Part shown: positions 1-61,543 of the stretch, one piece after another | How the letters are laid out: each line of letters begins with the position of its first letter | Position numbering within the stretch: position 1 is the stretch's first letter | Assembly: GCF_019059575.1 (NCBI RefSeq) | Contig: NW_024881792.1 | Span: 310,001 to 374,000, forward strand | Direction of reading: 5' to 3' | Source: Amphibalanus amphitrite | Lineage: Eukaryota > Arthropoda > Thecostraca > Balanomorpha > Balanidae | DNA: 64,000 nucleotides | Translations under genes and position numbers: made by a program | The notes under the pieces: model-generated | Told to the model about the DNA's origin: nothing | The model's input: only the letters and a program-made list of their open reading frames with translations | Database searches by the model: none

Positions 1-1527
1 TACAAAACTAGGCTATTTTCATTGTGATGGCATCACAGACTACACCGCTAAACCCAATAAAGCAGATTTATGTCGCGTCATCGATGATTACATATAATGT
101 TTCTTTGATATATATGTAGTCGGGTCTTTCAGCTGCGTCCCTCCCCTCCCTCGCCGCGCCGGCGGGTCGGCCATCCGCGGCTTGCCGCCCGCCGGCTGCT
201 GGCCGGTCAGCTGGCCGGTCAGCTGGTCGCCCGCGGCTGTCGGTGCAGTGCGGGATGCCTACTTGCGGGGGGCCGTCGTGGCGGCGGCCCGGGTGGACTG
301 GGCGAGCAGTGAGTTGGGGAGCGCTGCGCTGTCGGTGCTCTAGTTTGTATTGCGTTCGCATGATACGGCTTGAGCCAATACAGAGTGAACTGATTGAGCT
401 GAGCAAGTCTTTATATACATTGAAAAGTAAAGCACTTTTTACTGCATCTACGGTGAGATGCTAGATAAAATTTATGGTCTAATGGTACCCATTACTTAAC
501 AATTAAGTGAATCATTTCGTCGCTAAACTCTCGTAAATTCGTATGTCCGCCTCACTATGGAGTTTGGACCGTAACGTATGGCCTTTGCTCAGACAGTATA
601 CGAACAGGTGACGGGGATACCTCCCATAGAAGGATGCGACACGATTTTACTGCTAAATAGCGGCCGGCCGCCGTGGGGACGTTTTTGTACGACTTATATC
701 TCGGCAACCACTGGGCTGATACACGTGCGGTTTTTTGTGTGGGGTAGCTTTTTCCCTTCTTTCACATAGTGTGCTACTCTCGATGCATATGGGTGACCCC
801 TAACGCACGTTCCACGTGCAAAGCCAAGAGGTGCCTGTTTTGTAATAAGCGCAATAGCTCGCGGTAATTACTGGGCCGATTGCGCTAAAACTTGGCATGG
901 AGGTAGACACTTTCCAGGCGATGCATTTCCATGTGTCTTGGTAGGGGTGCAACTGCACGTGCGCACGTGCAGGGTGACGCTTCCAGATCTCGAGAACGGC
1001 TGGACCGATTGTGTTCAAATTTGGCATAACGCTTGATACCGATCAGTAGGTTGCAGTCATTTAGTATGTATTTCCATGTGCCACGATTGGGGTGCAACTG
1101 CACGTGCGCACGTGCAGGGTGACGCTTCCAGATCTCGAGAACGGCCGGGCCGATTGAGTTCAAATTTGGTACACCGCTAGAGACCGATTAGTAGGGTGCC
1201 GACTGCCGTGCGCAAGTCAGTTTGGACCCATCTTGCACGTGCGCACGTGCAGGGTGACGCTTCCAGATCTCAAGAACGGCTGGACCGATTGCACTCAAAT
1301 TCGGCAAACATCTAGAGATCGATCAGTAGGGTGCCGTGCACAAGTCAGTTAGTATGTATTTCCATGTGTCACGGTTGAGATGCAACTGCACGTGCGCACG
1401 TGGAGGGGTCGTTTCAAGATCTTGAAAACGGCTGGGCCGATTGAGCTCGAATTTGGTACACCGCTAGAGACCGGCGAATAGGGTCCCATGCACAATGCAA
1501 TTGGACACAGCTTGCACGTGCGCACGT
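1..1527 (+). mobile_element. Long-form unit, 3' part (modules M, B, C), cut by window start
   Basis: Matches 5857-7383 without visible difference. It holds the GC-rich module M (1-576), module B (about 577-870, starting with the ATGGCCTTTGCTCAGACAG text) and a C array whose 16-bp palindromic cores GCACGTGCGCACGTGC start at 955, 1100, 1235, 1388 and 1514 (the fourth and fifth are cut or varied at the end), giving spacings of 145, 135, 153 and 126 bp. The array breaks off inside the fifth core and is joined directly to the next unit's 5' end at 1527/1528. Short reading frames on either strand follow the tandem repeat and are not taken as genes. Confidence 0.75.
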
Positions 1528-3400
1528 AACCGCAGGTTGTTTGAAAAGACAAACACTATTCGTTAGAATTGTGTTTTTCTATTGAAAAACAACCGGAGCG
1601 GTCGTTGTCCGGGCTATGTTTTGCAAGTCTGGCAGCGAATTGGGGCAACTTGGTAGGGGCCTAGACTAAATGTACAATCGTCGCAAAAAGTTCAGTGTAT
1701 GGGCTCCCGGAGGCGATCTACCTGATGGCAACGGTCGCTACTCGCTTAAAACCTCGTGGCACGTGGCACGTGCGATTCCATTTTTCCCATGTTAAGTCAA
1801 CGGGGTTTTGGACACTTTTTGCGCGATCGCGAATGGCGGGAAAACGAGCCAAGGAAGAGGTGGTTTTCTTCCCAGCATTTTATGGCAAACACGTTTGGGT
1901 ACACGCCAGTGTGCGCTGTATACCCCTCAGAATCTCGGAACGTGTCTTTGCACGAGGTCAAAGTTGGAATTTTCCTGTGTCCCATGTTAAGTCAATGGAC
2001 GGCGATGTCGAGACTTTGCAGAGACATTTTCATTCGTTCATTGTACAAAATTTTAGAGATAGATTTCGCCCAAACTCTTATATCTTGTAGAGGAAAGAGC
2101 ATAGTACTTGCTGGTATGCTTCGTTAAGGTGGCAAAACTCATTTTTTCTTTTAAAGTTAATTTGAAATTTAAACTTTTTAACATGGAAAGTCAATGGGAG
2201 CGTCTTTATTCCTCTATAACTTTTAGCTTTAGTAAGATATATAGGTGAAAAGTTAATATAATATACAACTTTTGATGCTCTTTCCACTGATGCATAGGAC
2301 GTCACTGCACGATGTGCCGTTTTTAAGAAAAGCTGTAAAAAATCAGGGCTCGACTGTGACTTGAACCCAACCACATTAGAGTATACGAACAGGTGACGGG
2401 GATACCTCCCGTGTGCGGATGCGACACTAATTATTGCTAAATATTAGCATTCGGCCGCCGTGGGGGCGCCTTTACAAACCTTATATCTCTGCAACCACTG
2501 GACCGATTCACTCGCGGTCTTTTGTGTGGGATAGCTTCTTCCTTTCCCAAACGTAGTGTGCTACTCTCGATGCGTATGGGTGACCCCCTAATGCACGTGC
2601 CACGTGCAAAACGAAGAGAAGTCAGTTCGGTAACAAGTCTAATAACTCTGTAGTTATTTTGCCGATTGCGCTGATCCTTGGCATGGATGTAGGCACCCGC
2701 CCCGCAATGCATTTCCATGTGCCACGGTTGGGGTGCCGCTGCACGTGCGCACGGGCAGGGTGACGCTTCCAGATCTCGAGAACGGCTGGGCCGATTGTGA
2801 TCAAACTTGGCACACCGCTAGAGGCTGGTTAGTAGGGTGCCGTGCACAAGTCAGATGGGACCCGTTATGCACGTGCGCACGTGCAGGCTGACGCTTCCAG
2901 ATCTCAAGAACGGCTGGACAGACTGTGCTCAAATTTGGCATACCACTAGAGACTGGTTAGTAGGGTGCCGTGCACAAGTCAGTAAGTATGTATTTTCATG
3001 TGCCGCGGTTGGGGTGCAGCTGCACGTTCGCACGTGTAGGGGTCGTTTCCCGATCTTGGAAACGGCTGGGCCGATTCATATTATATTTGGTACATCGCTA
3101 GAAACCGGCGAATAGGGTGCCGTGCACAAGTCAATTGGGGCCCAGGCTGCACGTGCGCACGTGCAGGGTGTCGCTTCCAGATCTCGAAAACGGCCGGGTC
3201 GATTGCACTCAAATTTGGCACACCGCTATAGACCGGCGAATAGGGTGCCGTGCACGTCAGTCCGTAGCACACCGACTCCGGTCTGCACGTGCAAGGCTCA
3301 TCCTCTCGTTTGGCGGCGGGCGTTTTTGCTGCGTTTACAAAGGTGCTTGCTCAAACAACCTGCGGTCCCGCGATGCGGAGCCCAGCATCGCAGATGCTGG
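1528..3400 (+). mobile_element. Complete short-form unit (A-B-C-D)
   Basis: About 1.87 kb. It starts AACCGCAGGTTGTTT after a T. Module A (1528-2380) opens with a long imperfect hairpin in which ACCGC-GGTTGTTT pairs with AAACAACC-GCGGT. Module B follows at 2381 without M, then the C array (about 2640-3270), then the 3' segment D with AAACAACCTGCGGT at 3353-3366, the hairpin GCGATGC/GCATCGC and terminal CTGG at 3397-3400. Here the next base is G before T. A near-identical copy lies at 7384-9257. Non-autonomous, no protein-coding capacity seen. Confidence 0.75.
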
Positions 3401-3503
3401 GTATCGAACATGGGACGATTAGGATGCGCTTTGATTGAGGGATGGCTGCTTAAACGGCAGATATGAATACACCACACTTGCCGCAAGGCGCCATATTTGT
3501 CTT
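3401..3503. other. Spacer between two repeat units
   Basis: About 100 bp that does not recur elsewhere in the window, lying between the CTGG end at 3400 and the next AACCGC start. It is absent at the matching place in the second large copy (9257/9259). It may be original host sequence or captured DNA. No gene seen. Confidence 0.5.
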
Positions 3504-3689
3504 AACCGCAGGTTGTTGTTTCATTAGATTCAAGATAGCACACCGACTCCGGTTAGCACACCGACTCCGGTCTGCACGTGCAAGGCTCATCCTCTCGTTT
3601 GGCGGCGGGCGTTTTTGCTGCGTTTACAAAGGTGCTTGCTCAAACAACCTGCGGTCCCGCGATGCGGAGCCCAGCATCGCAGATGCTGG
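3504..3689 (+). mobile_element. 186-bp minimal unit with both ends
   Basis: Starts T|AACCGCAGGTTGTT and ends AAACAACCTGCGGT (3642-3655), hairpin, CTGG|T (3686-3690), but lacks modules A, B and C. A short 5' stub of about 32 bp is fused to segment D, in which the text AGCACACCGACTCCGG is duplicated. It looks like an internal-deletion derivative that keeps the two termini. Confidence 0.6.
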
Positions 3690-4547
3690 TAACCGCAGGT
3701 TGTTTGAAAAGACAAACACTATTCGTTAGAATTGTGTTTTTCTATTGAAAAACAACCGGAGCGGTCCTTCTCCGGGCTATGTTTTGCATGTCTGGCCGCG
3801 AATTGGGGCAACTTGGGTCAGGCCTAAACTTGTGGCTCGATTTTCTTAAAAATTTCAGTGTATGGGCTCCCGCAGGCGATCTACCTGTTGGCACCGGTCG
3901 CTACTCGCTTAAAACCTCGTGGCACGTGGCACGTGCGATTCCATTTTCCCCATGTTAAGTCAACGGGGTTTTGGACACTTTTTGCGCGATCGGGAATAGC
4001 GGAAAAACGAGCCAAGGAAGAGGTGGTTTTCTTCCCAGCATTTTATGGCAAACACGTTTGGGTACACGCTGGTGTGCGCCGTATACCCCTCAGAACTTCG
4101 TAACGTGTCTTTGCACGAGGTCAAAGTTGAATTTTTTTCGCTCCCCATGTTAAGTCAATGGGCGTTTTTGCAGAGACTTTTTCATTCGCTCATTGTACAA
4201 AATTATATGATACGATTTTGTTTAAACTTTCAGGACTTGTTGAGAAAAGACCATAGAACATGTTGTTATGCTTCTTTAAGCTGTGCAAATTCGTTTGTTC
4301 TTTTTAGGCTCGTTTAAAAATGAAAAATTTTAACATGGAAAGTGAATGGGAGCGTCTTTGCTGCTTAATAACTTTTTACAGTTGAGATATATTTAAGTGA
4401 AAAGTTGATAGGTTATACAACTTTTGATGCTCTTTCCAATGATATATACAACTTTATTGCACGTGGTGCCGTTTTTGAGAAATATAGTAAAAAAGCACGA
4501 CATTACCGAGATTTGAGCTCAGACCTATATCGTTACGGTGTCAGGCG
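3690..4547 (+). repeat. Module A, tandem copy 1 of 2 (858 bp)
   Basis: Apparently identical to 4548-5405. It carries the 5' hairpin, the paired E-box GGCACGTGGCACGTGC, three versions of the text CATGTTAAGTCAATGGG and an AT-rich 3' half. It ends in TCAGGCG and is joined directly to the next AACCGC start, so this unit is only an A module. Confidence 0.8.
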
Positions 4548-7383
4548 TAACCGCAGGTTGTTTGAAAAGACAAACACTATTCGTTAGAATTGTGTTTTTC
4601 TATTGAAAAACAACCGGAGCGGTCCTTCTCCGGGCTATGTTTTGCATGTCTGGCCGCGAATTGGGGCAACTTGGGTCAGGCCTAAACTTGTGGCTCGATT
4701 TTCTTAAAAATTTCAGTGTATGGGCTCCCGCAGGCGATCTACCTGTTGGCACCGGTCGCTACTCGCTTAAAACCTCGTGGCACGTGGCACGTGCGATTCC
4801 ATTTTCCCCATGTTAAGTCAACGGGGTTTTGGACACTTTTTGCGCGATCGGGAATAGCGGAAAAACGAGCCAAGGAAGAGGTGGTTTTCTTCCCAGCATT
4901 TTATGGCAAACACGTTTGGGTACACGCTGGTGTGCGCCGTATACCCCTCAGAACTTCGTAACGTGTCTTTGCACGAGGTCAAAGTTGAATTTTTTTCGCT
5001 CCCCATGTTAAGTCAATGGGCGTTTTTGCAGAGACTTTTTCATTCGCTCATTGTACAAAATTATATGATACGATTTTGTTTAAACTTTCAGGACTTGTTG
5101 AGAAAAGACCATAGAACATGTTGTTATGCTTCTTTAAGCTGTGCAAATTCGTTTGTTCTTTTTAGGCTCGTTTAAAAATGAAAAATTTTAACATGGAAAG
5201 TGAATGGGAGCGTCTTTGCTGCTTAATAACTTTTTACAGTTGAGATATATTTAAGTGAAAAGTTGATAGGTTATACAACTTTTGATGCTCTTTCCAATGA
5301 TATATACAACTTTATTGCACGTGGTGCCGTTTTTGAGAAATATAGTAAAAAAGCACGACATTACCGAGATTTGAGCTCAGACCTATATCGTTACGGTGTC
5401 AGGCGGACACGAGGACAGGTGGCGCCGCCGCCGCCCGCATAGCGGCGGGAATGTGAACTAACCTGTTTACCAGAGGGGTGTTCACGGGCACCGCACACTG
5501 CTGCGTGCGCTGTGTGCGGTGCGTCCAGCAGGCGTGGGGGTAGGGGATGGGTAGGCGGTTCTGACGTCACGGCTGCGTGCGGTGGACGGTCCGCTGTGGC
5601 CAGTCCCGACCGGCCACAGCGATCGCTGTGTGCGGTGACGGAAGGCTGACGTAGGGACGCAGTGGGCGGAGCTTGGAGGCTATGTGCGGTCCGACCGCAC
5701 ACAGGGCCCGTGAACAGCCCTCTGATCTATGGTATGGTACCATCGGGGGACCGGCCGCCGTCGGCACCATTTCGGGACTTTGCATCGCAATAAAAGGCTT
5801 ATTTACAATTGAAAATGGACTAGCGAGAGTCGTTATGGAATCAGAATTTGATGCTCTACAAAACTAGGCTATTTTCATTGTGATGGCATCACAGACTACA
5901 CCGCTAAACCCAATAAAGCAGATTTATGTCGCGTCATCGATGATTACATATAATGTTTCTTTGATATATATGTAGTCGGGTCTTTCAGCTGCGTCCCTCC
6001 CCTCCCTCGCCGCGCCGGCGGGTCGGCCATCCGCGGCTTGCCGCCCGCCGGCTGCTGGCCGGTCAGCTGGCCGGTCAGCTGGTCGCCCGCGGCTGTCGGT
6101 GCAGTGCGGGATGCCTACTTGCGGGGGGCCGTCGTGGCGGCGGCCCGGGTGGACTGGGCGAGCAGTGAGTTGGGGAGCGCTGCGCTGTCGGTGCTCTAGT
6201 TTGTATTGCGTTCGCATGATACGGCTTGAGCCAATACAGAGTGAACTGATTGAGCTGAGCAAGTCTTTATATACATTGAAAAGTAAAGCACTTTTTACTG
6301 CATCTACGGTGAGATGCTAGATAAAATTTATGGTCTAATGGTACCCATTACTTAACAATTAAGTGAATCATTTCGTCGCTAAACTCTCGTAAATTCGTAT
6401 GTCCGCCTCACTATGGAGTTTGGACCGTAACGTATGGCCTTTGCTCAGACAGTATACGAACAGGTGACGGGGATACCTCCCATAGAAGGATGCGACACGA
6501 TTTTACTGCTAAATAGCGGCCGGCCGCCGTGGGGACGTTTTTGTACGACTTATATCTCGGCAACCACTGGGCTGATACACGTGCGGTTTTTTGTGTGGGG
6601 TAGCTTTTTCCCTTCTTTCACATAGTGTGCTACTCTCGATGCATATGGGTGACCCCTAACGCACGTTCCACGTGCAAAGCCAAGAGGTGCCTGTTTTGTA
6701 ATAAGCGCAATAGCTCGCGGTAATTACTGGGCCGATTGCGCTAAAACTTGGCATGGAGGTAGACACTTTCCAGGCGATGCATTTCCATGTGTCTTGGTAG
6801 GGGTGCAACTGCACGTGCGCACGTGCAGGGTGACGCTTCCAGATCTCGAGAACGGCTGGACCGATTGTGTTCAAATTTGGCATAACGCTTGATACCGATC
6901 AGTAGGTTGCAGTCATTTAGTATGTATTTCCATGTGCCACGATTGGGGTGCAACTGCACGTGCGCACGTGCAGGGTGACGCTTCCAGATCTCGAGAACGG
7001 CCGGGCCGATTGAGTTCAAATTTGGTACACCGCTAGAGACCGATTAGTAGGGTGCCGACTGCCGTGCGCAAGTCAGTTTGGACCCATCTTGCACGTGCGC
7101 ACGTGCAGGGTGACGCTTCCAGATCTCAAGAACGGCTGGACCGATTGCACTCAAATTCGGCAAACATCTAGAGATCGATCAGTAGGGTGCCGTGCACAAG
7201 TCAGTTAGTATGTATTTCCATGTGTCACGGTTGAGATGCAACTGCACGTGCGCACGTGGAGGGGTCGTTTCAAGATCTTGAAAACGGCTGGGCCGATTGA
7301 GCTCGAATTTGGTACACCGCTAGAGACCGGCGAATAGGGTCCCATGCACAATGCAATTGGACACAGCTTGCACGTGCGCACGT
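4548..7383 (+). mobile_element. Long-form unit (A-M-B-C) with truncated 3' end
   Basis: Module A (4548-5405) runs on into GC-rich module M from 5406, interrupted by a 254-bp inverted-repeat element, then module B (about 6433-6730) and the C array, which stops inside a palindromic core at 7383. Segment D and the CTGG end are absent. The same truncation is seen at 1527. M contains an AATAAA (5790-5795) and CTGGCCGGTCAG in two tandem copies, but no gene that I recognise. Confidence 0.7.
5471..5724. mobile_element. 254-bp hAT-like MITE inside module M
   Basis: Ends are CAGAGGGGTGTTCACGGGC and, reverse-complemented, CAGAGGGCTGTTCACGGGC (18 of 19 identical). Inside are repeated GTGTGCGGTG motifs in both orientations. 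The copy of module M at 62467 reads straight through the same point (GTTTAC|ATCTATGG), and the copy at 10181 has one extra C, so the element is present or absent between units. No 8-bp target duplication is visible, which is odd for hAT. A second copy lies at 57945-58198. Confidence 0.7.
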
Positions 7384-9257
7384 AACCGCAGGTTGTTTGA
7401 AAAGACAAACACTATTCGTTAGAATTGTGTTTTTCTATTGAAAAACAACCGGAGCGGTCGTTGTCCGGGCTATGTTTTGCAAGTCTGGCAGCGAATTGGG
7501 GCAACTTGGTAGGGGCCTAGACTAAATGTACAATCGTCGCAAAAAGTTCAGTGTATGGGCTCCCGGAGGCGATCTACCTGATGGCAACGGTCGCTACTCG
7601 CTTAAAACCTCGTGGCACGTGGCACGTGCGATTCCATTTTTCCCATGTTAAGTCAACGGGGTTTTGGACACTTTTTGCGCGATCGCGAATGGCGGGAAAA
7701 CGAGCCAAGGAAGAGGTGGTTTTCTTCCCAGCATTTTATGGCAAACACGTTTGGGTACACGCCAGTGTGCGCTGTATACCCCTCAGAATCTCGGAACGTG
7801 TCTTTGCACGAGGTCAAAGTTGGAATTTTCCTGTGTCCCATGTTAAGTCAATGGACGGCGATGTCGAGACTTTGCAGAGACATTTTCATTCGTTCATTGT
7901 ACAAAATTTTAGAGATAGATTTCGCCCAAACTCTTATATCTTGTAGAGGAAAGAGCATAGTACTTGCTGGTATGCTTCGTTAAGGTGGCAAAACTCATTT
8001 TTTCTTTTAAAGTTAATTTGAAATTTAAACTTTTTAACATGGAAAGTCAATGGGAGCGTCTTTATTCCTCTATAACTTTTAGCTTTAGTAAGATATATAG
8101 GTGAAAAGTTAATATAATATACAACTTTTGATGCTCTTTCCACTGATGCATAGGACGTCACTGCACGATGTGCCGTTTTTAAGAAAAGCTGTAAAAAATC
8201 AGGGCTCGACTGTGACTTGAACCCAACCACATTAGAGTATACGAACAGGTGACGGGGATACCTCCCGTGTGCGGATGCGACACTAATTATTGCTAAATAT
8301 TAGCATTCGGCCGCCGTGGGGGCGCCTTTACAAACCTTATATCTCTGCAACCACTGGACCGATTCACTCGCGGTCTTTTGTGTGGGATAGCTTCTTCCTT
8401 TCCCAAACGTAGTGTGCTACTCTCGATGCGTATGGGTGACCCCCTAATGCACGTGCCACGTGCAAAACGAAGAGAAGTCAGTTCGGTAACAAGTCTAATA
8501 ACTCTGTAGTTATTTTGCCGATTGCGCTGATCCTTGGCATGGATGTAGGCACCCGCCCCGCAATGCATTTCCATGTGCCACGGTTGGGGTGCCGCTGCAC
8601 GTGCGCACGGGCAGGGTGACGCTTCCAGATCTCGAGAACGGCTGGGCCGATTGTGATCAAACTTGGCACACCGCTAGAGGCTGGTTAGTAGGGTGCCGTG
8701 CACAAGTCAGATGGGACCCGTTATGCACGTGCGCACGTGCAGGCTGACGCTTCCAGATCTCAAGAACGGCTGGACAGACTGTGCTCAAATTTGGCATACC
8801 ACTAGAGACTGGTTAGTAGGGTGCCGTGCACAAGTCAGTAAGTATGTATTTTCATGTGCCGCGGTTGGGGTGCAGCTGCACGTTCGCACGTGTAGGGGTC
8901 GTTTCCCGATCTTGGAAACGGCTGGGCCGATTCATATTATATTTGGTACATCGCTAGAAACCGGCGAATAGGGTGCCGTGCACAAGTCAATTGGGGCCCA
9001 GGCTGCACGTGCGCACGTGCAGGGTGTCGCTTCCAGATCTCGAAAACGGCCGGGTCGATTGCACTCAAATTTGGCACACCGCTATAGACCGGCGAATAGG
9101 GTGCCGTGCACGTCAGTCCGTAGCACACCGACTCCGGTCTGCACGTGCAAGGCTCATCCTCTCGTTTGGCGGCGGGCGTTTTTGCTGCGTTTACAAAGGT
9201 GCTTGCTCAAACAACCTGCGGTCCCGCGATGCGGAGCCCAGCATCGCAGATGCTGGG
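7384..9257 (+). mobile_element. Complete short-form unit, second copy
   Basis: Corresponds position by position to 1528-3401 at an offset of 5856 bp. C cores, B module and D segment are all present; AAACAACCTGCGGT is at 9209-9222 and CTGG at 9253-9256, followed by G and T. The next unit starts immediately at 9259, whereas the first copy is followed by a unique spacer. Confidence 0.75.
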
Positions 9258-9258
9258 T

Positions 9259-12085
9259 AACCGCAGGTTGTTTGAAAAGACAAACACTATTCGTTAGAAT
9301 TGTGTTTTTCTATTGAAAAACAACCGGAGCGGTCCGTCTCCGGGCTATGTTTTGCAAGTCTGGCCGCGAATTGGGGCAACTTGACCGGGGCCTAAACGTG
9401 CATTGCGATTTTCGTAAAAATTTCAGGGTATGGGCTCCCGGGGGCGATCTACCTGATGGCTTCGGTCGCTACTCGCTTAAAACCTCGTGGCACGTGGCAC
9501 GTGCGATTCCATTTTCCCCATGTTAAGTCAATGGGGTTTTGGACACTTTTTGCGCGATCGCGAATAGCGGGAAAACGAGCCAAGGAAGAGGTGGTTTTCT
9601 TCCCAGCATTTTATGGCAAACACGTTTGGGTACACGCTAGTGTGCGCCGTATACCCCTCAGAACTTCGTAACGTGACTTTGCACGAGGTCAAAGTTGAAC
9701 TTTTTTCGCTCCCCATGTTAAGTCAATGGGCATTTTTGCAGAGACTTTTTCATTCGCTCATTGTACAAAATTATATGATACGATTTTGTTTAAACTTCCA
9801 GGACTTGTTGAGAAAAGACCATAGAACATGTTGTTATGCTTCTTTAAGCTGTGCAAATTCGTTTGTTCTTTTTAGGCTCGTTTAAAAATGAAAAATTTTA
9901 ACATGGAAAGTCAATGGGAGCGTCTTTGCTGCTTAATAACTTTTTACAGTTGAGATATATTTATGTGAAAAGTTGATAGGTTATACAACTTTTGATGCTC
10001 TTTCCAATGATATATACAACTTTATTGCACGTGGTGCCGTTTTTGAGAAATATAGTAAAAAAGCACGACATTACCGAGATTTGAGCTCAGACCTATATCG
10101 TTACGGTGTCAGGCGGACACGAGGACAGGTGGCGCCGCCGCCGCCCGCATAGCGGCGGGAATGTGAACTAACCTGTTTACCATCTATGGTATGGTACCAT
10201 CGGGGGACCGGCCGCCGTCGGCACCATTTCGGGACTTTGCATCGCAATAAAAGGCTTATTTACAATTGAAAATGGACTAGCGAGAGTCGTTATGGAATCA
10301 GAATTTGATGCTCTACAAAACTAGGCTATTTTCATTGTGATGGCATCACAGACTACACCGCTAAACCCAATAAAGCAGATTTATGTCGCGTCATCGATGA
10401 TTACATATAATGTATCATTCTTTGATATATATGTAGTCGGGTCTTTCAGCTGCGTCCCTCCCCTCCCTCGCCGCGCCGGCGGGTCGGCCATCCGTGGCTT
10501 GCCGCCCGCCGGCTGCTGGCCGGTCAGCTGGCCGGTCAGCTGGTCGCCCGCGGCTGTCGGTGCAGTGCGGGATGCCTACTTGCGGGGGGGGGGGCCGTCG
10601 TGGCGGCGGCCCGGGTGGACTGGGCGAGCAGTGAGTTGGGGAGCGCTGCGCTGTCGGTGCTCTAGTTTGTATTGCGTTCGCATGATACGGCTTGAGCCAA
10701 TACAGAGTGAACTGATTGAGCTGAGCAAGTCTTTACATACATTGAAAAGTAAAGCACTTTTTACTGCATCTACGGTGAGATGCTAGATAAAATTTATGGT
10801 CTACCTAATGGTACCCATTACTTAACAATTAAGTGAATCATTTCGTCGCTAAACTCTCGTAAATTCGTATGTCCGCCTCACTATGGAGTTTGGACCGTAA
10901 CGTATGGCCTTTGCTCAGACAGTATACGAACAGGTGACGGGGATACCTCTAATAGAAGGATGCGACACGATTTTACTGCTAAATAGCGGCCGGCCGCCGT
11001 GGGGACGTTTTTGTACGACTTATATCTCGGCAACCACTGGGCTGATACACGTGCGGTTTTTTTGTGTGGGGTAGCTTTTTCCCTTCTTTCACATAGTGTG
11101 CTACTCTCGATGCATATGGGTGACCCCTAACGCACGTTCCACGTGCAAAGCCAAGAGGTGCCTGTTTTGTAATAAGCGCAATAGCTCGCGGTAATTACTG
11201 GGCCGATTGCGCTAAAACTTGGCATGGAGGTAGACACTTTCCAGGCGATGCATTTCCATGTGTCTTGGTAGGGGTGCAACTGCACGTGCGCACGTGCAGG
11301 GTGACGCTTCCAGATCTCCAGAACGGCTGGACCGATTGTGTTCAAATTTGGCATAACGCTTGATACCGATCAGTAGGTTGCAGTCATTTAGTATGTATTT
11401 CCATGTGCCACGATTGGGGTGCAACTGCACGTGCGCACGTGCAGGGTGACGCTTCCAGATCTCGAGAACGGCCGGGCCGATTGAGTTCAAATTTGGTACA
11501 CCGCTAGAGACCGATTAGTAGGGTGCCGTGCGCAAGTCAGTTTGGACCCATCTTGCACGTGCGCACGTGCAGGGTGACGCTTCCAGATTTCAAGAACGGC
11601 TGGACCGATTGCACTCAAATTCGGCAAACATCTAGAGATCGATCAGTAGGGTGCCGTGCACAAGTCAGTTAGTATGTATTTCCATGTGTCACGGTTGAGA
11701 TGCAACTGCACGTGCGCACGTGGAGGGGTCGTTTCAAGATCTTGAAAACGGCTGGGCCGATTGAGCTCGAATTTGGTACACCGCTAGGGACCGGCGAATA
11801 GGGTCCCATGCACAATGCAATTGGACACAGCTTGCACGTGCGCACGTGCAGGGTGACGCTTCCAGATCTCGAAAATGGCCGAGCCGATTACACTCAAATT
11901 TGGCACACCGCTATAGATCAGCGAGTAGGGTGCCGTGCACGTCAGTTTGTAACACACCGACTCCGGTCTGCACGTGCAAGGCTCATCCTCTCGTTTGGCG
12001 GCGGGCGTTTTTGCTGCGTTTACAAAGGTGCTTGCTCAAACAACCTGCGGTCCCGCGATGCGGAGCCCAGCATCGCAGATGCTGG
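9259..12085 (+). mobile_element. Complete long-form unit (A-M-B-C-D), 2.83 kb
   Basis: The only long-form unit in the window with both ends. A is 9259-10115. M follows without the MITE (empty site at 10180/10181). B starts about 10905, the C array covers about 11200-11950, and D carries AAACAACCTGCGGT at 12038-12051 and CTGG at 12082-12085. It differs from the other long forms by small indels, for example extra G residues near 10585 and ATC at 10414. Confidence 0.75.
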
Positions 12086-12086
12086 T

Positions 12087-13618
12087 AACCGCAGGTTGTT
12101 TGAAAAGACAAACACTATTCGTTAGAATTGTGTTTTTCTATTGAAAAACAACCGGAGCAGTCGTTCTCCGGGCTATGTTTTGCATGTCTGGCCGCGGATT
12201 GGGGCACCTTGCTACCTGCCCAAACTACTGCAACGATTTTCGTAAAAATTTCAGAGCATGGGCTCGCGGAGGCGATCTAGCTGCTGGTACCGGTCGCTAC
12301 TCGCTCAGAATTCTTTTGCGCGTGGCACGTGCGTTTCCATTTTCCCCATGTTAAGTCAATGGGGGTTTGGGGCTTTTTTTGCGCCATCGCTAATGGCGGA
12401 AAAACGAGCCAAGAAAGGGGTGGTTTTCTTCCAGGCATTTAATGGCAAACACGTTCCGGTACACGCCAGTGTGCGCCGTTTACCCGTCAGAATCTCGGAA
12501 CGTTTCTTTGCACGAGGTCAAAGTTGGAATTTTGCTGTGTCCCATGTTAAGTGAATGGACAATTTTGCAGATATATTTTCATTCGCGCATTGTAAAAAAA
12601 TATGTGTCACGATTTCGTCCAAACATTCAAGAGTTGTTGAGGAAGGAGCATAGTATATGCTGTTGTGTTTAGTTAAGCTGTGCAAAATCGTTTTTTCCTT
12701 TAAAAGCTTGTTTAAAAATGACAATTTTTAACATGGAAGGTCAATGGGGGCGTCTTTGTTGCTTAATACGTTTTTACGTTGCACGTATATAAAAGTGAAA
12801 AGTTAATGAAATATACAACTTTCGATGCTCTCTCCAACAATGTATAGAACGTCACTGCTCGATGTGCCGTTTTTAAGAAAAGCTGTAAAAAAGCAGGGCT
12901 CGACTGTGGCTTGAACCCAACCATATTAGAGTATACGAACAGGTGACGGCGATACCTCCCGTGTGCGGACGCGACACTGATATTGCTAAATATTAGCAGT
13001 AGGCCGCCTGTGGGGTGCCTTTACAAACCTTATATCTCTGCAACCACTGGACCGATTCACTCGCGGTCTTTTGTGTGGGATAGCTTCTTCCTTTCTTACA
13101 CGTAGTGTGCTATTCTCGATGCGTATGGGTGACCCCTAATGCACGTGCCACGTGCAAAACGAAGAGTTGTCAGTTCGGTAACAAGTCTAATAACTCTGTA
13201 GTTAGTTTGCCGATTGCACTGATACTTGGCACGGATGTAGGCAACCGCCGGGCAATGCATTTCTGTGTGTCACCGTGGGGGTGCAGCTGCACGTGCGCAC
13301 GGGCAGGGTGACGCTTCCAGATCTCGAGAACGGCTGGGCCGATTTTGATCAAACTTGGCACACCGTTAGGGATCGGCGAGTAGGGTGCCGTGCAACAGTC
13401 AGATGGGACCAATTTTGCACGTGCGCACGTGCAGGGTGCCGCTTCGAGATCTCCAAAACGGCCGGGCCGATTGCACTCAAATTCGGCACACCGCTAGAGA
13501 GCGGTTAGTAGAGTGCCATGCACAAGTCAGTTAGTATGTATTTTCATGTGCCACGGTTGGGGTGCAGCTGCACGTGAGCACGTGTAGGGGTCGCTTCCAG
13601 ATCTTGAAAACAGCTGGG
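12087..13618 (+). mobile_element. Short-form unit, subfamily 2, truncated 3' end (1533-bp tandem copy 1)
   Basis: A diverged module A (different text after the hairpin, many substitutions relative to 1528-2380), then module B (about 12933) and part of a C array. The unit ends within the array at AAACAGCTGGG and is followed at once by T|AACCGC. It is repeated almost exactly at 13620-15150 with a 1533-bp period and at least one 1-bp deletion. Confidence 0.75.
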
Positions 13619-13619
13619 T

Positions 13620-15479
13620 AACCGCAGGTTGTTTGAAAAGACAAACACTATTCGTTAGAATTGTGTTTTTCTATTGAAAAACAACCGGAGCAGTCGTTCT
13701 CCGGGCTATGTTTTGCATGTCTGGCCGCGGATTGGGGCACCTTGCTACCTGCCCAAACTACTGCAACGATTTTCGTAAAAATTTCAGAGCATGGGCTCGC
13801 GGAGGCGATCTAGCTGCTGGTACCGGTCGCTACTCGCTCAGAATTCTTTTGCGCGTGGCACGTGCGTTTCCATTTTCCCCATGTTAAGTCAATGGGGGTT
13901 TGGGGCTTTTTTTGCGCCATCGCTAATGGCGGAAAAACGAGCCAAGAAAGGGGTGGTTTTCTTCCAGGCATTTAATGGCAAACACGTTCCGGTACACGCC
14001 AGTGTGCGCCGTTTACCCGTCAGAATCTCGGAACGTTTCTTTGCACGAGGTCAAAGTTGGAATTTTGCTGTGTCCCATGTTAAGTGAATGGACAATTTTG
14101 CAGATATATTTTCATTCGCGCATTGTAAAAAAATATGTGTCACGATTTCGTCCAAACATTCAAGAGTTGTTGAGGAAGGAGCATAGTATATGCTGTTGTG
14201 TTTAGTTAAGCTGTGCAAAATCGTTTTTCCTTTAAAAGCTTGTTTAAAAATGACAATTTTTAACATGGAAGGTCAATGGGGGCGTCTTTGTTGCTTAATA
14301 CGTTTTTACGTTGCACGTATATAAAAGTGAAAAGTTAATGAAATATACAACTTTCGATGCTCTCTCCAACAATGTATAGAACGTCACTGCTCGATGTGCC
14401 GTTTTTAAGAAAAGCTGTAAAAAAGCAGGGCTCGACTGTGGCTTGAACCCAACCATATTAGAGTATACGAACAGGTGACGGCGATACCTCCCGTGTGCGG
14501 ACGCGACACTGATATTGCTAAATATTAGCAGTAGGCCGCCTGTGGGGTGCCTTTACAAACCTTATATCTCTGCAACCACTGGACCGATTCACTCGCGGTC
14601 TTTTGTGTGGGATAGCTTCTTCCTTTCTTACACGTAGTGTGCTATTCTCGATGCGTATGGGTGACCCCTAATGCACGTGCCACGTGCAAAACGAAGAGTT
14701 GTCAGTTCGGTAACAAGTCTAATAACTCTGTAGTTAGTTTGCCGATTGCACTGATACTTGGCACGGATGTAGGCAACCGCCGGGCAATGCATTTCTGTGT
14801 GTCACCGTGGGGGTGCAGCTGCACGTGCGCACGGGCAGGGTGACGCTTCCAGATCTCGAGAACGGCTGGGCCGATTTTGATCAAACTTGGCACACCGTTA
14901 GGGATCGGCGAGTAGGGTGCCGTGCAACAGTCAGATGGGACCAATTTTGCACGTGCGCACGTGCAGGGTGCCGCTTCGAGATCTCCAAAACGGCCGGGCC
15001 GATTGCACTCAAATTCGGCACACCGCTAGAGAGCGGTTAGTAGAGTGCCATGCACAAGTCAGTTAGTATGTATTTTCATGTGCCACGGTTGGGGTGCAGC
15101 TGCACGTGAGCACGTGTAGGGGTCGCTTCCAGATCTTGAAAACAGCTGGGCCGATTCACCTCAAATTTGGTACACCGCTAGAGACCGGCGAAAAGGGTGT
15201 CGTGCACAAGTCAATTGGGACCCAGCTTGCACGTGCGCACGTGCAGGGTGCCGCTTCGAGATTTCGAAAACGCCCGGGCCGATTGCACTCAAATTTGGCA
15301 CACCGCTAGAGACCGGTTAGTAGAGTGCAGCGCACGTCAGTTCATAGCACACCCACTCCGGTCTGCACGTGCAAGGCTCATCCTCTCTTTTGGCGGCGGG
15401 CGTTTTTGCGGCGTTACAGAGGTGCTTGCTCAAACAACCTGCGGTCCCGCGATGCGGAGCCCAGCATCGCAGATGCTGG
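13620..15479 (+). mobile_element. Short-form unit, subfamily 2, complete (1533-bp tandem copy 2)
   Basis: Repeats the preceding unit and then continues past its truncation point through two more C repeats and segment D (AAACAACCTGCGGT 15432-15445, CTGG 15476-15479, then T). This 3' end marks the right border of the block against unshared sequence (TACTGGATGG). Confidence 0.75.
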
Positions 15480-15480
15480 T

Positions 15481-15667
15481 ACTGGATGGAGCCGTAAACT
15501 GAGCGATGAATTGTCGAGATTCATTGGTAATCGTCACTTGAGTTTCGGTGGAGTTCAGCTAATTACTGGGTAACATTTTTGAGGGATCATTTAGTTTTTT
15601 TCCTTGATTCAGTAAGTTCACGGCGGTAAATAAGTTTCCTAAGTGAATTTGTCGTATAAGAAATAAT
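15481..15667. other. Spacer, nothing recognised
   Basis: AT-rich sequence between the last intact unit and an old relic of module A. No coding or repeat signal seen. Confidence 0.4.
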
Positions 15668-16210
15668 AACCGAAGGTTTGTTGTCAATAGTTAAAACACT
15701 ATTCTTTAGAATTGTGTTTTTCTATTGAAAAACAAATCTGAGTTCCCTGACAATTTGGCAAAAGCTGCCTGAGATCAGTACAACTTGATGCTCTTGAAAA
15801 CGGCTGGTCCAAATATTCTGATTTTTTCAGGATTTCTAGTGGGCCAGGTGATCTACGTTCTGGTATGGGTCTCCCCTCCGCGGACCATCTGGTGCACGTG
15901 CCACGTGACTTTAAAAATTCCCGTGTTAAGCCAATGGGGAAAATGAAAAAATGCGTTCCACGGCAGATTGCTCGAAAACGATCCAAACGACCCCCCATTT
16001 TCTTACATGCAGATCAACCACCATTCGGTGCACTACCCATGGGTATGTCGCAAAGTGGCCGGAAAAGTCCAGAACCACGTGCCACGTGCCGTTGAAAATG
16101 ACCCTGCACACCGGAAATTGGGACTTTTGGTCATTTCGGCGCACCCATGATGCATACTATGGCGTGGGTGACCAAACAATGGGTGTCATCCGGTCGGCAA
16201 CTGTTTAAGG
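15668..16210 (+). repeat. Diverged relic of module A
   Basis: The start AACCGAAGGTTTGTTG is a mutated form of the unit 5' end. About 25 bp further on, ACACTATTCTTTAGAATTG and the following TTTTTCTATTGAAAAACAA are almost unchanged from the intact copies, while the rest is heavily diverged. Later landmarks remain in order: a GATCTACG step, paired E-boxes GCACGTGCCACGTG (about 15895), GTGTTAAGCCAATGGGG (15922-15938) and another CCACGTGCCACGTG pair (about 16078). It marks an older generation of the same family next to the young block. Confidence 0.65.
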
Positions 16211-16326
16211 TGTCGTCCAGTGGGCCAAAGTGGTAGTTTCAAACTTTTGGGATCCACCACTCTGGGGATTCTTTTTGACAATATACTTACGTTTCTTGGC
16301 GCAATGTTCATTCCACCCAGCCGGTC

Positions 16327-16560
16327 GTCAATGCGTTAGATGACCCAAATGACGATTGACCTGAAGGAAGTTGGGGGCGAGGAACACGCACGTGCCATCC
16401 GTTTTTTACTCGGGCGCTTTCATCTAGGAGATTTTTGCAGATACGTCAATGCGTTAGATGACCCAAATGACGATTGACCTGAAGGAAGTTGGGGGCGAGG
16501 AACACGCACGTGCCATCCGTTTTTTAATCGGGCGCTTTCATCTAGGAGATTTTTGCAGAT
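16327..16560. repeat. 118-bp direct tandem duplication
   Basis: Text beginning GTCAATGCGTTAGATGACCC starts at 16327 and again at 16445 with one visible base difference (TTTTTTACTCG versus TTTTTTAATCG). Each copy holds one CACGTG. Possibly part of the older repeat next to it. Confidence 0.8.
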
Positions 16561-16619
16561 ATCTTTTTGATTTGTGAAAATGACCAGCCTAGCGGTATGC
16601 CAGCCGCTGATAAATTATT

Positions 16620-40467: not shown

Positions 40468-40600
40468 CGGATTTAGCACAAACGCTAAATCCGCTAAATT
40501 TAGCACAACGCTAAATTTAGTAACTAAATCTCACGTGGATTTAGCCCAAACGCACGTATAGTAGCTAAATCTAACGTGGATTTAGCCCAAACGCACGGAG
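40468..40600. repeat. ATTTAGC/GCTAAAT palindromic minisatellite
   Basis: GGATTTAGC and GCTAAATCC or GCTAAATTTAGC alternate in both orientations. The last part is two direct 41-bp copies of a unit with GTGGATTTAGCCCAAACGC. Able to form cruciform structures. Lies inside the large Rbp6 intron. Confidence 0.75.
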
Positions 40601-53852: not shown

Positions 53853-53853
53853 T

Positions 53854-56800
53854 AACCGCAGGTTGTTTGAAAAGACAAACACTATTCGTTAGAATTGTGT
53901 TTTTCTATTGAAAAACAACCGGAGCGGTCCTTCTCCGGGCTATGTTTTGAAAGTCTGGCAGCGAATTGGGGCAACTTGAGCGGGGCCTAGACGAATCGCT
54001 CAATCTTCGTAAAAAGTTCAGAGTATGGGCTCCCGGAGGCGATCTACCTGATGGCATCGGTCGCTACTCGCTTAAAACCTCGTGGCACGTGGCACGTGCG
54101 ATTCCATTTTCCCCATGTTAAGTCAATGGGGTTTTGGACACTTTTTGCGCGATCGCGAATAGCGGAAAAAATCGCGGAACAAGGTATGGTTTGCTGCCCA
54201 CCATTCTATGGCCCACACATTCAGGTACACGCCCGTGTGCGCCGTATACCCGTCAGAATTCGTTAACGTGAGTTGCACGAGTTTGAAGTTGAACTTTTTT
54301 CGCTCCCCATGTTAAGTCAATGGGCGTTTTTGCAGAGACATTTTCATTCGCTCATTGTACAAAATTATATGATACGATTTTGTTTAAACTTTCAGGACCT
54401 GTTGAGAAAAGACAATAGAACATGTTGTTATGCTTCGTTAAGCTGTCAGAATTCGTTTGTTCTTTTTAAGCTGGTTTAAAAAAGAATTTTTTTAACATGC
54501 AAAGTCAATGAAAGCGTCTTTGATGCTTAATAACTTTTTACGTTAAAGCATAGACCACTATATATCTGGACTGTGCACGGAAACTAGGGCCCTGCCATTA
54601 GGGCCCTAACTTTCGAAGGTCGTCACAGCCAACTTATTCGCCATATGATGATGTGCTTTGGGAAACATCACCACTAGTCAATTTGTAATCTGAGTTATAT
54701 CTTACATTGAGCAAAAAATATATAATATTAGCGCAATCATCGAAAAAAGAAGGGCATTTTCTGCCCATTTCTTCCATGATTTAACATGGTGTGGATGATG
54801 GTTCCCAGCTAATTTTCACGAGAATTAGCAAATTTTCACAGACATGTAGCGAAGATTTTTGCAAGATTATTGTTGTTTGTTTATCATTGACATGCGGGAT
54901 AGTTCTCTTTTGTCTTTAAATAAAATGAAACCTTTTAATGCATACATGCCACTGAAATACAGTAAAATGTGCCGCTAGTGATAATCACTTCAGAATATCC
55001 TATGAACAGAACAGGGAGTGAGCATATTCAAAGAGCCAAGACAGTGCATGCAACAATGTCAGTTTTCCGGTTCCTGGCTAAGGCATCAATATGAAGTCAA
55101 TTTCTATATGCCCTAAAGCTGAAAATGTCTTGGAATTCTGACCACTGGGCTCCCTGTGAGTTTTATTACATGCTGTGACGCTGGCCGAGACCGAAAAATT
55201 GAGCAGAAGACTACTGTAAGGAGAGGTGGCGGATCCGTTTCCAGACTGGCGGCTCCTATAATATCAGTCACAACTACAAGTGAAGCCCAAAACTAGCTAA
55301 AGTCTTGCAATTTGGTCAAGTGATGGTCACATATGTTATGGCTTGCGGAGAGCTGGCGTGCCCACATCAGCAATCTGTGTTCCGCTCCTGCATGCAAGCA
55401 ATGGGTCCTGCTCTGGTAACAGCTGCCGAGTCGCTCTCTCTTCGGCACACGTATAGCTTCAAACGTGTGTTTCAAGACAGCGCGACTACCATTGTAAAGG
55501 AAAACGATAACTTTCTTCACATTGCTCGCTGAGGGAGTCACACTGTCGAGAAGCACCTCAAGTTACAACGCTACGACCTGCATTCCTTCAACACATTGAT
55601 GTGTATAGTTGAGCGAAAAACAAACATTGCAATTCATGGAGTCAATATGGACAGTATACCGTCACTCAACACCAGCGATGCGCGAACAGAGCTTCATGAA
55701 ATAAGAAAGCTTCATGAAAATGAGAAAGGTTGAGCCGCAGGACGTAAACACAATGCAACATTCCTGGGATCAGTTTGTCTATGCAATCAATAACTACGAT
55801 CCTATTCGTCGATGTGTAAGATACCTACATGGCTGAGAATTTCAGATGTGGATTTACAATTCGAATAGTAACTAAAGGCAGATGTAGCACAAGAACTATA
55901 AGAAAGTGCATTCCTAAGTGCGAAGCTCTGCTGCAGTGTCCAGTGAACCGAGATCTCGTGACTCCGTCTAAATCTCGAATCTCGATCGCCATCACCCGCT
56001 GCAAAATGCGGCCACCGTCACTGACAACGGTGTTCAAAAGTCCCCTTCTCTCGAGAGGGACAGATGACAGAACCCGTCTGTCCCTATGCTGAGCATGAAA
56101 TCGGCCTCAGTGGAAGCAGGGAACAGTTGTGGCCCAGCAGGTCACCTCGGACGGTCTCGCTAAAAACGCAGCACCGGCAGCTTTGTTATTTACCCATAGG
56201 AATCTTCGTAATTCCGTGGCGCAGATCGTGTGGGCTTTCAAAGCATTGAGCCGGGTGCGTGTCTGATTTAGACAGGCAAATTAATCTGCAGTGTGTCCAA
56301 TATGTCATCAGACTGTCTCTTGTCAAAAACGACCGATCACGGATTGTTCCTGTCTATTGATGCTTTGAACTTAATACAGTGTGATATACCTGTCTATAAG
56401 TGCTTTTATTTATTTATGGTGTTAAAAATCATGCTATAAATTATACATTTATTAAAATATACATCACATTTAAGAAGTTACTTTCATTTAAATGGGCTTA
56501 CTAGAGCGTCAATACACAATTCCGCGTGCTACGTCGAATTTCCCAGCAGGGCCCTAATAGCAGTCGGCAAAATCCGTGCACAGTCCAGATATATAGTGGT
56601 CTATGGTTAAAGATATATTTAAGTGAAAAGTTGATAGGTTATACAACTTTTGATGCTCTTTCCTGTGATATATAGAACGTCATTGCACGTTGTGCCGTTT
56701 TCGAGAAATTTAGTAAAAAAGCACGACATTACCGAGATTTGAGCTCAGACCTATATATGGCCTTGGCTCAGACAGTATACGAACAGGTGACAGGGATACC

Positions 56801-57021
56801 TCCCATTGAAGGATGCGATTTAATGTTGAATATTAGCGGCCGGCCGCCGTGGGGACGTTTTTGTACGACTTATATCTCCGCAGCCACTGGACCGATACAC
56901 TTGCGTTTTTTTGTATGGGGTGGCGTATACCCTTCTTACAAGTATTTTACTATGGACGATGCATGCGGGTGACCCCTACTGCACGTGACACGTGTAAAAC
57001 AGAGAGGTGTCACTTTTGTTG
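53854..57021 (+). mobile_element. Unit (A-B) interrupted by a DNA transposon, truncated 3' end
   Basis: Module A (53854-54548 and 56606-56756) is split by a 2057-bp insertion. Removing the insertion and one duplicate of GTTAAAG restores the text seen in other A modules (TTTTTAC...ATATATTTAAGTG). Module B follows directly at about 56757 and stops after CACTTTTGTTG, where the next AACCGC start is joined. C, D and M are missing. Confidence 0.75.
54549..56605. mobile_element. TIR transposon with 33-bp perfect ends, P-element-like (2057 bp)
   Basis: The two ends are 33-bp exact inverted repeats starting CATAGACCACTATATATCTG (54549-54581 and 56573-56605). The flanks duplicate GTTAAAG (54542-54548 and 56606-56612). 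AGGGCCCT palindromes lie just inside both ends. CA...TG termini, long TIRs and a 7- to 8-bp duplication point to the P superfamily, but hAT or another cut-and-paste group is not excluded. The interior has only short broken reading frames (for example 55305-55532 +), no transposase that I recognise, so it is probably non-autonomous. Confidence 0.8.
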
Positions 57022-57022
57022 T

Positions 57023-59728
57023 AACCGCAGGTTGTTTGAAAAGACAAACACTATTCGTTAGAATTGTGTTTTTCTATTGAAAAACAACCGGAGCGGTCCT
57101 TCTCCGGGCTATGTTTTGCATGTCTGGCCGCGAATTGGGGCAACTTGGGTCAGGCCTAAACTTGTGGCTCGATTTTCTTAAAAATTTCAGTGTATGGGCT
57201 CCCGCAGGCGATCTACCTGTTGGCACCGGTCGCTACTCGCTTAAAACCTCGTGGCACGTGGCACGTGCGATTCCATTTTCCCCATGTTAAGTCAACGGGG
57301 TTTTGGACACTTTTTGCGCGATCGGGAATAGCGGAAAAACGAGCCAAGGAAGAGGTGGTTTTCTTCCCAGCATTTTATGGCAAACACGTTTGGGTACACG
57401 CTGGTGTGCGCCGTATACCCCTCAGAACTTCGTAACGTGTCTTTGCACGAGGTCAAAGTTGAATTTTTTTCGCTCCCCATGTTAAGTCAATGGGCGTTTT
57501 TGCAGAGACTTTTTCATTCGCTCATTGTACAAAATTATATGATACGATTTTGTTTAAACTTTCAGGACTTGTTGAGAAAAGACCATAGAACATGTTGTTA
57601 TGCTTCTTTAAGCTGTGCAAATTCGTTTGTTCTTTTTAGGCTCGTTTAAAAATGAAAAATTTTAACATGGAAAGTGAATGGGAGCGTCTTTGCTGCTTAA
57701 TAACTTTTTACAGTTGAGATATATTTAAGTGAAAAGTTGATAGGTTATACAACTTTTGATGCTCTTTCCTATGATATATACAACTTTATTGCACGTGGTG
57801 CCGTTTTTGAGAAATATAGTAAAAAAGCACGACATTACCGAGATTTGAGCTCAGACCTATATCGTTACGGTGTCAGGCGGACACGAGGACAGGTGGCGCC
57901 GCCGCCGCCCGCATAGCGGCGGGAATGTGAACTAACCTGTTTACCAGAGGGGTGTTCACGGGCACCGCACACTGCTGCGTGCGCTGTGTGCGGTGCGTCC
58001 AGCAGGCGTGGGGGTAGGGGATGGGTAGGCGGTTCTGACGTCACGGCTGCGTGCGGTGGACGGTCCGCTGTGGCCAGTCCCGACCGGCCACAGCGATCGC
58101 TGTGTGCGGTGACGGAAGGCTGACGTAGGGACGCAGTGGGCGGAGCTTGGAGGCTATGTGCGGTCCGACCGCACACAGGGCCCGTGAACAGCCCTCTGAT
58201 CTATGGTATGGTACCATCGGGGGACCGGCCGCCGTCGGCACCATTTCGGGACTTTGCATCGCAATAAAAGGCTTATTTACAATTGAAAATGGACTAGCGA
58301 GAGTCGTTATGGAATCAGAATTTGATGCTCTACAAAACTAGGCTATTTCCATTGTGATGGCATCACAGACTACACCGCTAAACCCAATAAAGCAGATTTA
58401 TGTCGCGTCATCGATGATTACATATAATGTTTCTTTGATATATATGTAGTCGGGTCTTTCAGCTGCGTCCCTCCCCTCCCTCGCCGCGCCGGCGGGTCGG
58501 CCATCCGCGGCTTGCCGCCCGCCGGCTGCTGGCCGGTCAGCTGGCCGGTCAGCTGGTCGCCCGCGGCTGTCGGTGCAGTGCGGGATGCCTACTTGCGGGG
58601 GGCCGTCGTGGCGGCGGCCCGGGTGGACTGGGCGAGCAGTGAGTTGGGGAGCGCTGCGCTGTCGGTGCTCTAGTTTGTATTGCGTTCGCATGATACGGCT
58701 TGAGCCAATACAGAGTGAACTGATTGAGCTGAGCAAGTCTTTATATACATTGAAAAGTAAAGCACTTTTTACTGCATCTACGGTGAGATGCTAGATAAAA
58801 TTTATGGTCTAATGGTACCCATTACTTAACAATTAAGTGAATCATTTCGTCGCTAAACTCTCGTAAATTCGTATGTCCGCCTCACTATGGAGTTTGGACC
58901 GTAACGTATGGCCTTTGCTCAGACAGTATACGAACAGGTGACGGGGATACCTCCCATAGAAGGATGCGACACGATTTTACTGCTAAATAGCGGCCGGCCG
59001 CCGTGGGGACGTTTTTGTACGACTTATATCTCGGCAACCACTGGGCTGATACACGTGCGGTTTTTTTGTGTGGGGTAGCTTTTTCCCTTCTTTCACATAG
59101 TGTGCTACTCTCGATGCATATGGGTGACCCCTAACGCACGTTCCACGTGCAAAGCCAAGAGGTGCCTGTTTTGTAATAAGCGCAATAGCTCGCGGTAATT
59201 ACTGGGCCGATTGCGCTAAAACTTGGCATGGAGGTAGACACTTTCCAGGCGATGCATTTCCATGTGTCTTGGTAGGGGTGCAACTGCACGTGCGCACGTG
59301 CAGGGTGACGCTTCCAGATCTCGAGAACGGCTGGACCGATTGTGTTCAAATTTGGCATAACGCTTGATACCGATCAGTAGGTTGCAGTCATTTAGTATGT
59401 ATTTCCATGTGCCACGATTGGGGTGCAACTGCACGTGCGCAAGTGCAGGGTGACGCTTCCAGATCTCGAGAACGGCTGGGCCGATTGAGCTTAAATTCGG
59501 TACACCGCTAGAGACCGGCAACTAGAGTGCCGTGCACAAGTCAGTTGGGACCCAGCTTGCACGTGCGCACGTGAAGGGTGCCGCTTCAATATCTCGAAAA
59601 TGGCCGGGCCGATTGCACTCAAATTTTGCACACCGCTAGAGTGGTTAGTAGAGTGTCCTGTTCGTCAGTTCGTAGCACACCCACTCCGGTCTGCACGTGC
59701 CAATCTCATCCTCTCGTTTGGCGGCGGG
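57023..59728 (+). mobile_element. Long-form unit (A-M-B-C-part D) with MITE, truncated 3' end
   Basis: A 57022-57879, M with the 254-bp MITE, B from about 58907, a shortened C array and a D segment cut at GGCGGCGGG, where the next unit begins. It matches the left-block long form at 4549 closely until the C array and then differs in the last two C repeats. Confidence 0.75.
57945..58198. mobile_element. 254-bp hAT-like MITE, second copy
   Basis: Corresponds exactly in position and length to the copy at 5471-5724 (offset 52474). Probably duplicated with its host unit rather than inserted independently. Confidence 0.7.
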
Positions 59729-59729
59729 T

Positions 59730-59850
59730 AACCGCAGGTTGTTTCTTCATTAGACAAACACCATTCGTTAGAATTGTGCTTTTCTATTGAAAAAAACAAC
59801 CGGAGCAGTCCTTCACCGGGCTATGTTTTGCATGGTTGGCCGCGAATCGA
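59730..59850 (+). mobile_element. Truncated 5' end of a unit
   Basis: AACCGCAGGTTGTTT, the conserved core (CCATTCGTTAGAATTGTG, then TTTTCTATTGAAAAAAACAA) and about 60 bp more, then the sequence leaves the family after GGCCGCGAATC. A variant insertion TCTTCATTAGAC follows the 15-bp start, as in the mini-unit at 3504. Confidence 0.65.
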
Positions 59851-61320: not shown

Positions 61321-61543
61321 TCGTGCACGTCGGTTCGTAGCACACCCACTCGGGTCTGCACGTGCAAGGCTCGTCCTCCGTTTGGCGGCGGGCGTTTTTG
61401 CTGCGTGCACGGGTGAGTGGGTTACAGAGGTTAGAGTGCAGTGCACGTCAGTTCGTAGCACACCCACTCTGGTCTGCACGTGCAAGGCTCATCCTCTCGT
61501 TTGGCGGCGGGTGTTTTGGCGGCGTTACAGAGGTGCTTGCTCT
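61321..61543 (+). repeat. Two partial copies of segment D
   Basis: The text CGTGCACGTCGGTTCGTAGC to GGCGGGCGTTTTTGCTGCGT occurs at about 61322-61408 and again at about 61440-61525, separated by a short GTGAGTGGGTTACAGAGG stretch. The second copy stops at GCTTGCTC, just before where AAACAACC would begin, and is joined to T|AACCGC. Confidence 0.65.

Follow-up and report, generated by a model that had tools for sequence, protein, structure and literature searches.

The stretch of DNA analysed here (64,000 nt, hereafter the window; G+C content of 51.1%) carries twelve copies of one 5' end, TAACCGCAGGTTGTT, all on the same strand (+), which open units grouped in two clusters, at 1-15,479 and at 53,853-64,000, the second one reaching the window end (Table 1). 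Five of these twelve units have both ends, six are 3'-truncated and one runs off the window, and a seventh 3'-truncated unit occupies 1-1527 with its 5' end outside the window. The array at 1528-15479 and its four complete units, which an earlier note had described, were found again, the units being correct to 1 nt (the one starting at 7384 ends at 9256 and is followed by an extra G at 9257), while the 186-bp mini-unit and the second cluster had been missed.

Table 1. Units and terminal structures located in the window
Feature	Position	Strand	Remark
3'-truncated long unit, 5' end beyond the window	1..1527	+	identical to 5857-7383
Complete short unit, type A	1528..3400	+	both ends present
Mini-unit of 186 bp with both ends	3504..3689	+	about 32 nt of the 5' end fused to about 150 nt of the 3' end
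3'-truncated long unit	3691..4547	+	matches the beginning of the unit at 4549 at 100%
3'-truncated long unit with a 254-bp inverted-repeat insert	4549..7383	+	insert at 5471-5724
Complete short unit, type A	7384..9256	+	both ends present
Complete long unit, 2,827 bp	9259..12085	+	both ends present
3'-truncated short unit, type B	12087..13618	+	matches the beginning of the unit at 13620 at 99.9%
Complete short unit, type B	13620..15479	+	about 87% identical to type A
Old diverged copy with T-AACC and 5' hairpin retained	15667..15986	+	61-65% identical to four units
3'-truncated divergent unit, split by an inverted-repeat element	53854..57021	+	element at 54549-56605
3'-truncated long unit	57023..59728	+	
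Unit with a different interior	59730..61542	+	cut off just before the 3' subterminal repeat
Long unit leaving the window	61544..64000	+	
5' terminal hairpin starting at T-AACC (example)	7383..7459	+	from folding
3' end (example)	9209..9256	+	AAACAACCTGCGGT, then 34 nt with the terminal hairpin CCAGCATC-GCA-GATGCTGG

At the 5' side, the exact 14-nt end AACCGCAGGTTGTT starts at 1528, 3504, 3691, 4549, 7384, 9259, 12087, 13620, 53854, 57023, 59730 and 61544, all on the plus strand and all twelve preceded by a T; when the old copy at 15667 is counted as well, T-AACC opens 13 of 13 5' ends. The 3' ends, which finish at 3400, 3689, 9256, 12085 and 15479, are identical to one another over their last 48 nt: a 14-nt subterminal inverted repeat (AAACAACCTGCGGT) is followed by 34 nt that close with the hairpin CCAGCATC-GCA-GATGCTGG and CTGG, so that the CTGG end proposed earlier at 34 nt past the subterminal repeat is seen in all five. 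The pair of subterminal inverted repeats, AACCGCAGGTTGTTT and AAACAACCTGCGGT, contains the palindrome AACC-GCA-GGTT. Searching the window for AACCGCAGGTTGTTT with up to two mismatches gave 17 matches against 0.25 expected from 100 shuffles, twelve on the plus strand and five on the other strand that correspond to the 3' repeats, which confirms that the shared ends are real. Concerning the old copy at 15667, a 3' partner repeat was not found (4 matches against 1.93 expected).

Hairpins were found at both termini, as had been claimed. The first 88 nt of a unit (7383-7470), folded as DNA, reached -17.5 kcal/mol compared to a shuffle mean of -8.66 (z -4.27), with none of 200 shuffles folding as low, so that the long 5' hairpin is not only present but also strong. 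The corresponding fold of the old diverged copy reached -17.2 (z -6.88), and its stem carries two-sided changes at two pairs with pairing kept (GGTTGTTT/AAACAACC compared to GGTTTGTT/AACAAATC, as read by eye). The 3' hairpin is an 8-bp stem that ends at CTGG and has the same sequence in each of the five 3' ends. The 24 nt of the 3' end fold at -7.6, a value that only 0.6% of 2,000 random unit positions attain, and longer 3'-end stretches stand out less from their shuffles, with a z of -2.23 over 66 nt (7 of 200 folding as low) and of -0.52 over 72 nt (60 of 200).

The three complete units compared, one each of type A, type B and the long kind, display overall pairwise identities of 82.6-87.3%, and in none of the three pairs do the two ends show any change, over 72-76 nt on the 5' side and 60-133 nt on the 3' side. 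Such conservation is not confined to the ends, as inner stretches are equally identical in two of the three pairs: types A and B share unchanged runs of 79 and 59 nt inside the units, and type A and the long unit share runs of 71 and 53 nt. The two ends stand out in the comparison of type B with the long unit only, where the next-longest inner run is 33 nt. Between the ends, the period of the internal repeats, which was read from the spacing of a palindrome within the monomer, runs 145-128-153-126 bp for the complete long unit. The long copies that end at 1527 and 7383 show 145-135-153, and both types of complete short unit show 128-153-127, so that the spacing is mostly within the 126-153 bp proposed earlier for the tandem array.

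When the first 680 nt of ten of the twelve units were compared (the 59,730 unit and the mini-unit sharing too little length to be included), they fell into a long group (mutually 95.6-100% identical), type A, type B and the 53,854 unit (79.9-89.9% identical to the rest). Since the 59,730 unit and the mini-unit differ again at their 5' ends, there are at least five sequence variants, and the two subfamilies of 1.87 and 2.83 kb of the earlier note are an undercount. The interior of the 59,730 unit (59860-61300), which is possibly captured sequence, has no close match in the other units; this unit also displays a direct repeat (60112-60201 and 60331-60418, 81%) and a doubled 3'-like stretch past 61,300.

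Other sequences are inserted in the units or lie beside them. The 53,854 unit is interrupted by a 2,057-bp element (54549-56605) with terminal inverted repeats of about 33 nt (CATAGACCACTATATATCTGGACTGTGCACGGA) and 7-bp flanking repeats GTTAAAG, in which a six-frame Pfam search gave no match. The 254-bp inverted-repeat insert at 5471-5724 (left end CAGAGGGGTGTTCACGGGC) is carried by two long units, those starting at 4549 and 57023; the insert-free site reads GTTTACATCTATGG in the 61544 unit and has one extra C in the 9259 unit, and from these sites no target duplication is visible for the insert. A 118-bp repeat in two copies at 99% lies downstream of the old diverged copy (16326-16561).

No open frame longer than 286 aa was found in the window. 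Translated in all six frames, neither the long unit nor 53,853-61,546 gave a Pfam match at 0.01, so that no recognised protein domain was found in these two scanned regions. Searching 10 of 84 open frames returned a single weak match below the cut-off (DUF3762, E 0.087), and two of the six frames of 38,400-53,000 returned none at 0.01. An open frame on the minus strand (42277-42819) without Pfam match contains LACDGLHD, which we take to resemble a PP2C phosphatase motif. Neither Rfam, at gathering scores, nor ARAGORN gave matches over the window. The exact 30-nt 5' pattern had no match in viral_contigs and genome_contigs, and a 3' pattern had none in viral_contigs, collections that may omit the records of the source genome; among the matches listed in a literature search for the terminal sequences, we found 12-nt pieces in one unrelated paper.

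Considering this anatomy, we propose, with a probability of about 0.85, that these units are gene-less elements of the HINE-like non-autonomous rolling-circle type that work like a HINE. HINEs are described as non-coding elements with palindromic subterminal inverted repeats of 12-15 bp, a 3' palindrome and, in some copies, tandem repeats (PMC4067079), and the units have 14-nt palindromic subterminal repeats, a 3' palindrome, the optional central tandem repeats and no recognised coding capacity (a frame maximum of 286 aa, and Pfam on the long unit and 53,853-61,546). Whole rolling-circle elements in tandem are also described, their inner copies being often 3'-truncated (PMC7492417), as many units are here. 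The class membership suggested earlier is partly supported, agreeing with published anatomy and arrangement apart from its two-subfamily scheme. Canonical Helitrons (Helitron1) are described with 5'-TC, 3'-CTRR and a hairpin 10-12 nt from the 3' end (PMC5148889); the CTGG of the units does fit CTRR, but they start with TAACC, their hairpin abuts the 3' end and their ends share an inverted repeat. It is the hairpins, the asymmetric repeats and the junctions that carry the HINE-like reading, despite the inner identical runs.

The alternative that survives best is that the units are Helitron2-type elements without endonuclease domain, like FoHeli of Fusarium, which would use the same mechanism with another partner protein. 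Helitron2 elements are described as having asymmetric terminal inverted repeats and hairpins at both ends (PMC5148889), which the units have too, and the FoHeli1/2 termini carry a 12-bp hairpin-forming repeat whose 3' copy is 38-51 bp from the end (PMC5148889). Helentron-associated and Helitron2 elements are in fact inseparable by structure alone, but central tandem repeats in a gene-less element give the usual picture of a HINE (PMC4067079, PMC7492417), and we consider a Helitron2 origin unlikely.

The head-to-tail arrangement reported earlier was verified with units on the same strand and nine distinct junctions (those at 1527 and 7383 being counted once). Because these junctions were located through their 5' ends, the resumption at T-AACC in every one of them comes by construction and is not evidence. 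Three junctions follow a complete CTGG end, which abuts T-AACC directly at 3689/3690 and 12085/12086 and is separated from it by one extra G at 9256/9258; the six others follow a truncated unit (4548, 7383, 13619, 57022, 59729 and 61543). Like is joined with like at only two of the nine (4548 and 13619), different variants being linked at the other seven. To see where the T came from, the truncated upstream units were aligned with their paralogues: among those listed, the position of the T is occupied by G in four of four at 4548, by C in 20 of 20 at 13619 and by A in five of five at 61543, so that the T appears to have arrived with the downstream unit at these three junctions. The same position is C in five of six paralogues and T in one at 59729, and T in all 14 rows at 7383, one row being the duplicated junction itself; no paralogue aligns to junction 57022. 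The T before AACC is thus probably the first base of the element.

These junctions also bear on a second alternative, in which the locus would be satellite-like, its copies multiplied through unequal crossing-over or segmental duplication, and the ends would be nothing but frozen landmarks. A test that does not depend on our list of 5' ends used the plus-strand blocks of self-similarity that reach 600 nt (78 blocks, which overlap and are not independent): 36 of the 78 start no further than 5 nt from one of the twelve 5' ends, 13 stop just before a 5' end and five end at a 3' end. The 42 blocks that start elsewhere would fit such amplification. Amplification of this kind would also fit the 100% identity of 1-3403 with 5857-9259, as if a truncated long unit and a complete type A unit had moved together, although this 3,403-bp repeat, whose left limit is outside the window, halts at an element 3' end plus GTA; this identical repeat may also be a misassembly. 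Given the blocks that begin at 5' ends, the prevalence of junctions between different variants and the 3' limit of the duplication, a satellite-like origin is very improbable.

Host flanks are few in the window. If the element starts at the T, the host base before it is T at 3502 and C at 53852, and on the 3' side the host sequence reads GTATCG in one case and TACTGG in the other. When 3503-15479 is taken as a single insertion, which is one assumed case, the flanks TTTGTCT and TACTGG would meet as T|T without duplication. All twelve 5' flanks of AACC are T, but as this T looks element-borne at three junctions and host flanks are so few, insertion in T-rich or TT targets without target duplication, as is described for HINEs, is no more than a possibility for the units. 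A cut-and-paste DNA transposon of the ordinary kind (MITE), whose inverted ends would be imperfect and which the 14-nt inverted repeat borne by the ends might recall, is the least probable explanation of all, since the 3' copy of that repeat lies 34 nt from its end, which makes the pair asymmetric, since both ends have hairpins, and since 3503-15479, taken as one insertion, shows no duplication at its flanks.

For the HINE-like elements that we favour, we infer that a Rep/helicase encoded elsewhere, as no autonomous element is seen in the window, would cut the 5' end just before T-AACC, peel off one strand, recognise the 3' subterminal repeat and the terminal hairpin, and then cut after CTGG; the copy would be made and pasted in, often directly onto the tail of an earlier copy. 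The clean junctions probably put the T inside the element and suggest a joining that is directed by the 5' end.

Intact 5' ends, variable 3' ends and the lack of visible left-over 3' halves give the arrays a polarity that neither unequal crossing-over nor nested insertion readily provides. Simple nested insertion is not favoured, as no two 3' ends were found without an intervening 5' end, and the sequences after complete units (3401-3502 and 15480-15666) have no match elsewhere in the window at E 0.01 and thus contain no left-over 3' half; the doubled 3'-like stretch at 61,300-61,542 is a possible exception. Cryptic terminators at the truncation points were also rejected: the six truncated junctions fold no better than 2,000 random unit positions, the fractions of positions folding as low being 0.32-1.0 for the 24 nt before the junction and 0.12-0.79 for the 40 nt before it, compared to 0.006 and 0.012 for the two true 3' ends tested. 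Truncation points that are not hairpins speak against mistaken terminators. Repeated copying of one circle would leave most junctions unexplained, as only the two same-variant junctions fit it; amplicons of joined ends that suggest circles have been described (PMC5148889).

A tentative explanation, which we regard as possible but doubtful, is that the arrays grow by one-ended transfer: a T-AACC 5' end held by the enzyme would be joined to whatever 3' end is available, the acceptor being either an authentic CTGG terminus or a chance break inside an older copy, whichever its variant, rather than by read-through of a single circle. With its small collection of junctions, the window can serve to study at which point Helentron-type elements cut their 5' end, and these junctions bear on the origin of tandem arrays with 3' truncation, from which satellite DNA may arise.

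The find is real and well preserved, and it is also largely ordinary, its pattern being one already described for rolling-circle elements. The tandem Helitron arrays of plants and bat are made of canonical Helitrons with other termini. Their inner members often lack 3' ends, as here (PMC7492417, PMC5876387). Tandem clusters are described for bat and silkworm, and side-by-side insertions for bat and maize (PMC4067079). In oyster, Cg_HINE resembles the units by its satellite-like arrays between left and right modules and its 3' palindrome, but it is described as dispersed (PMC7492417), whereas the units lie in head-to-tail clusters. Drosophila DINE-1 is similar in its 13-bp subterminal repeats, its 3' stem-loop and its 5' inverted repeat with the left arm within the subterminal repeat, and differs in that its subterminal repeats are described as not themselves palindromic (PMC4067079). 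Palindromic repeats are reported for Culex Helentrons as well (PMC4067079). HINE-Mo of the mite Metaseiulus occidentalis, which we compared by its description, is also gene-less, with palindromic subterminal repeats, a 3' palindrome and some tandem repeats (PMC4067079), in a genome with a G+C content of 52% (PMC5467014) compared to 51.1% in the window. Its repeats are placed 2-4 and 38-60 nt from the ends (PMC4067079), compared to 0-1 and 34 nt here, and the 5' hairpin of the units runs past the palindromic repeat, resembling an inverted repeat that PMC4067079 describes for DINE-1 but not for the mite HINEs.
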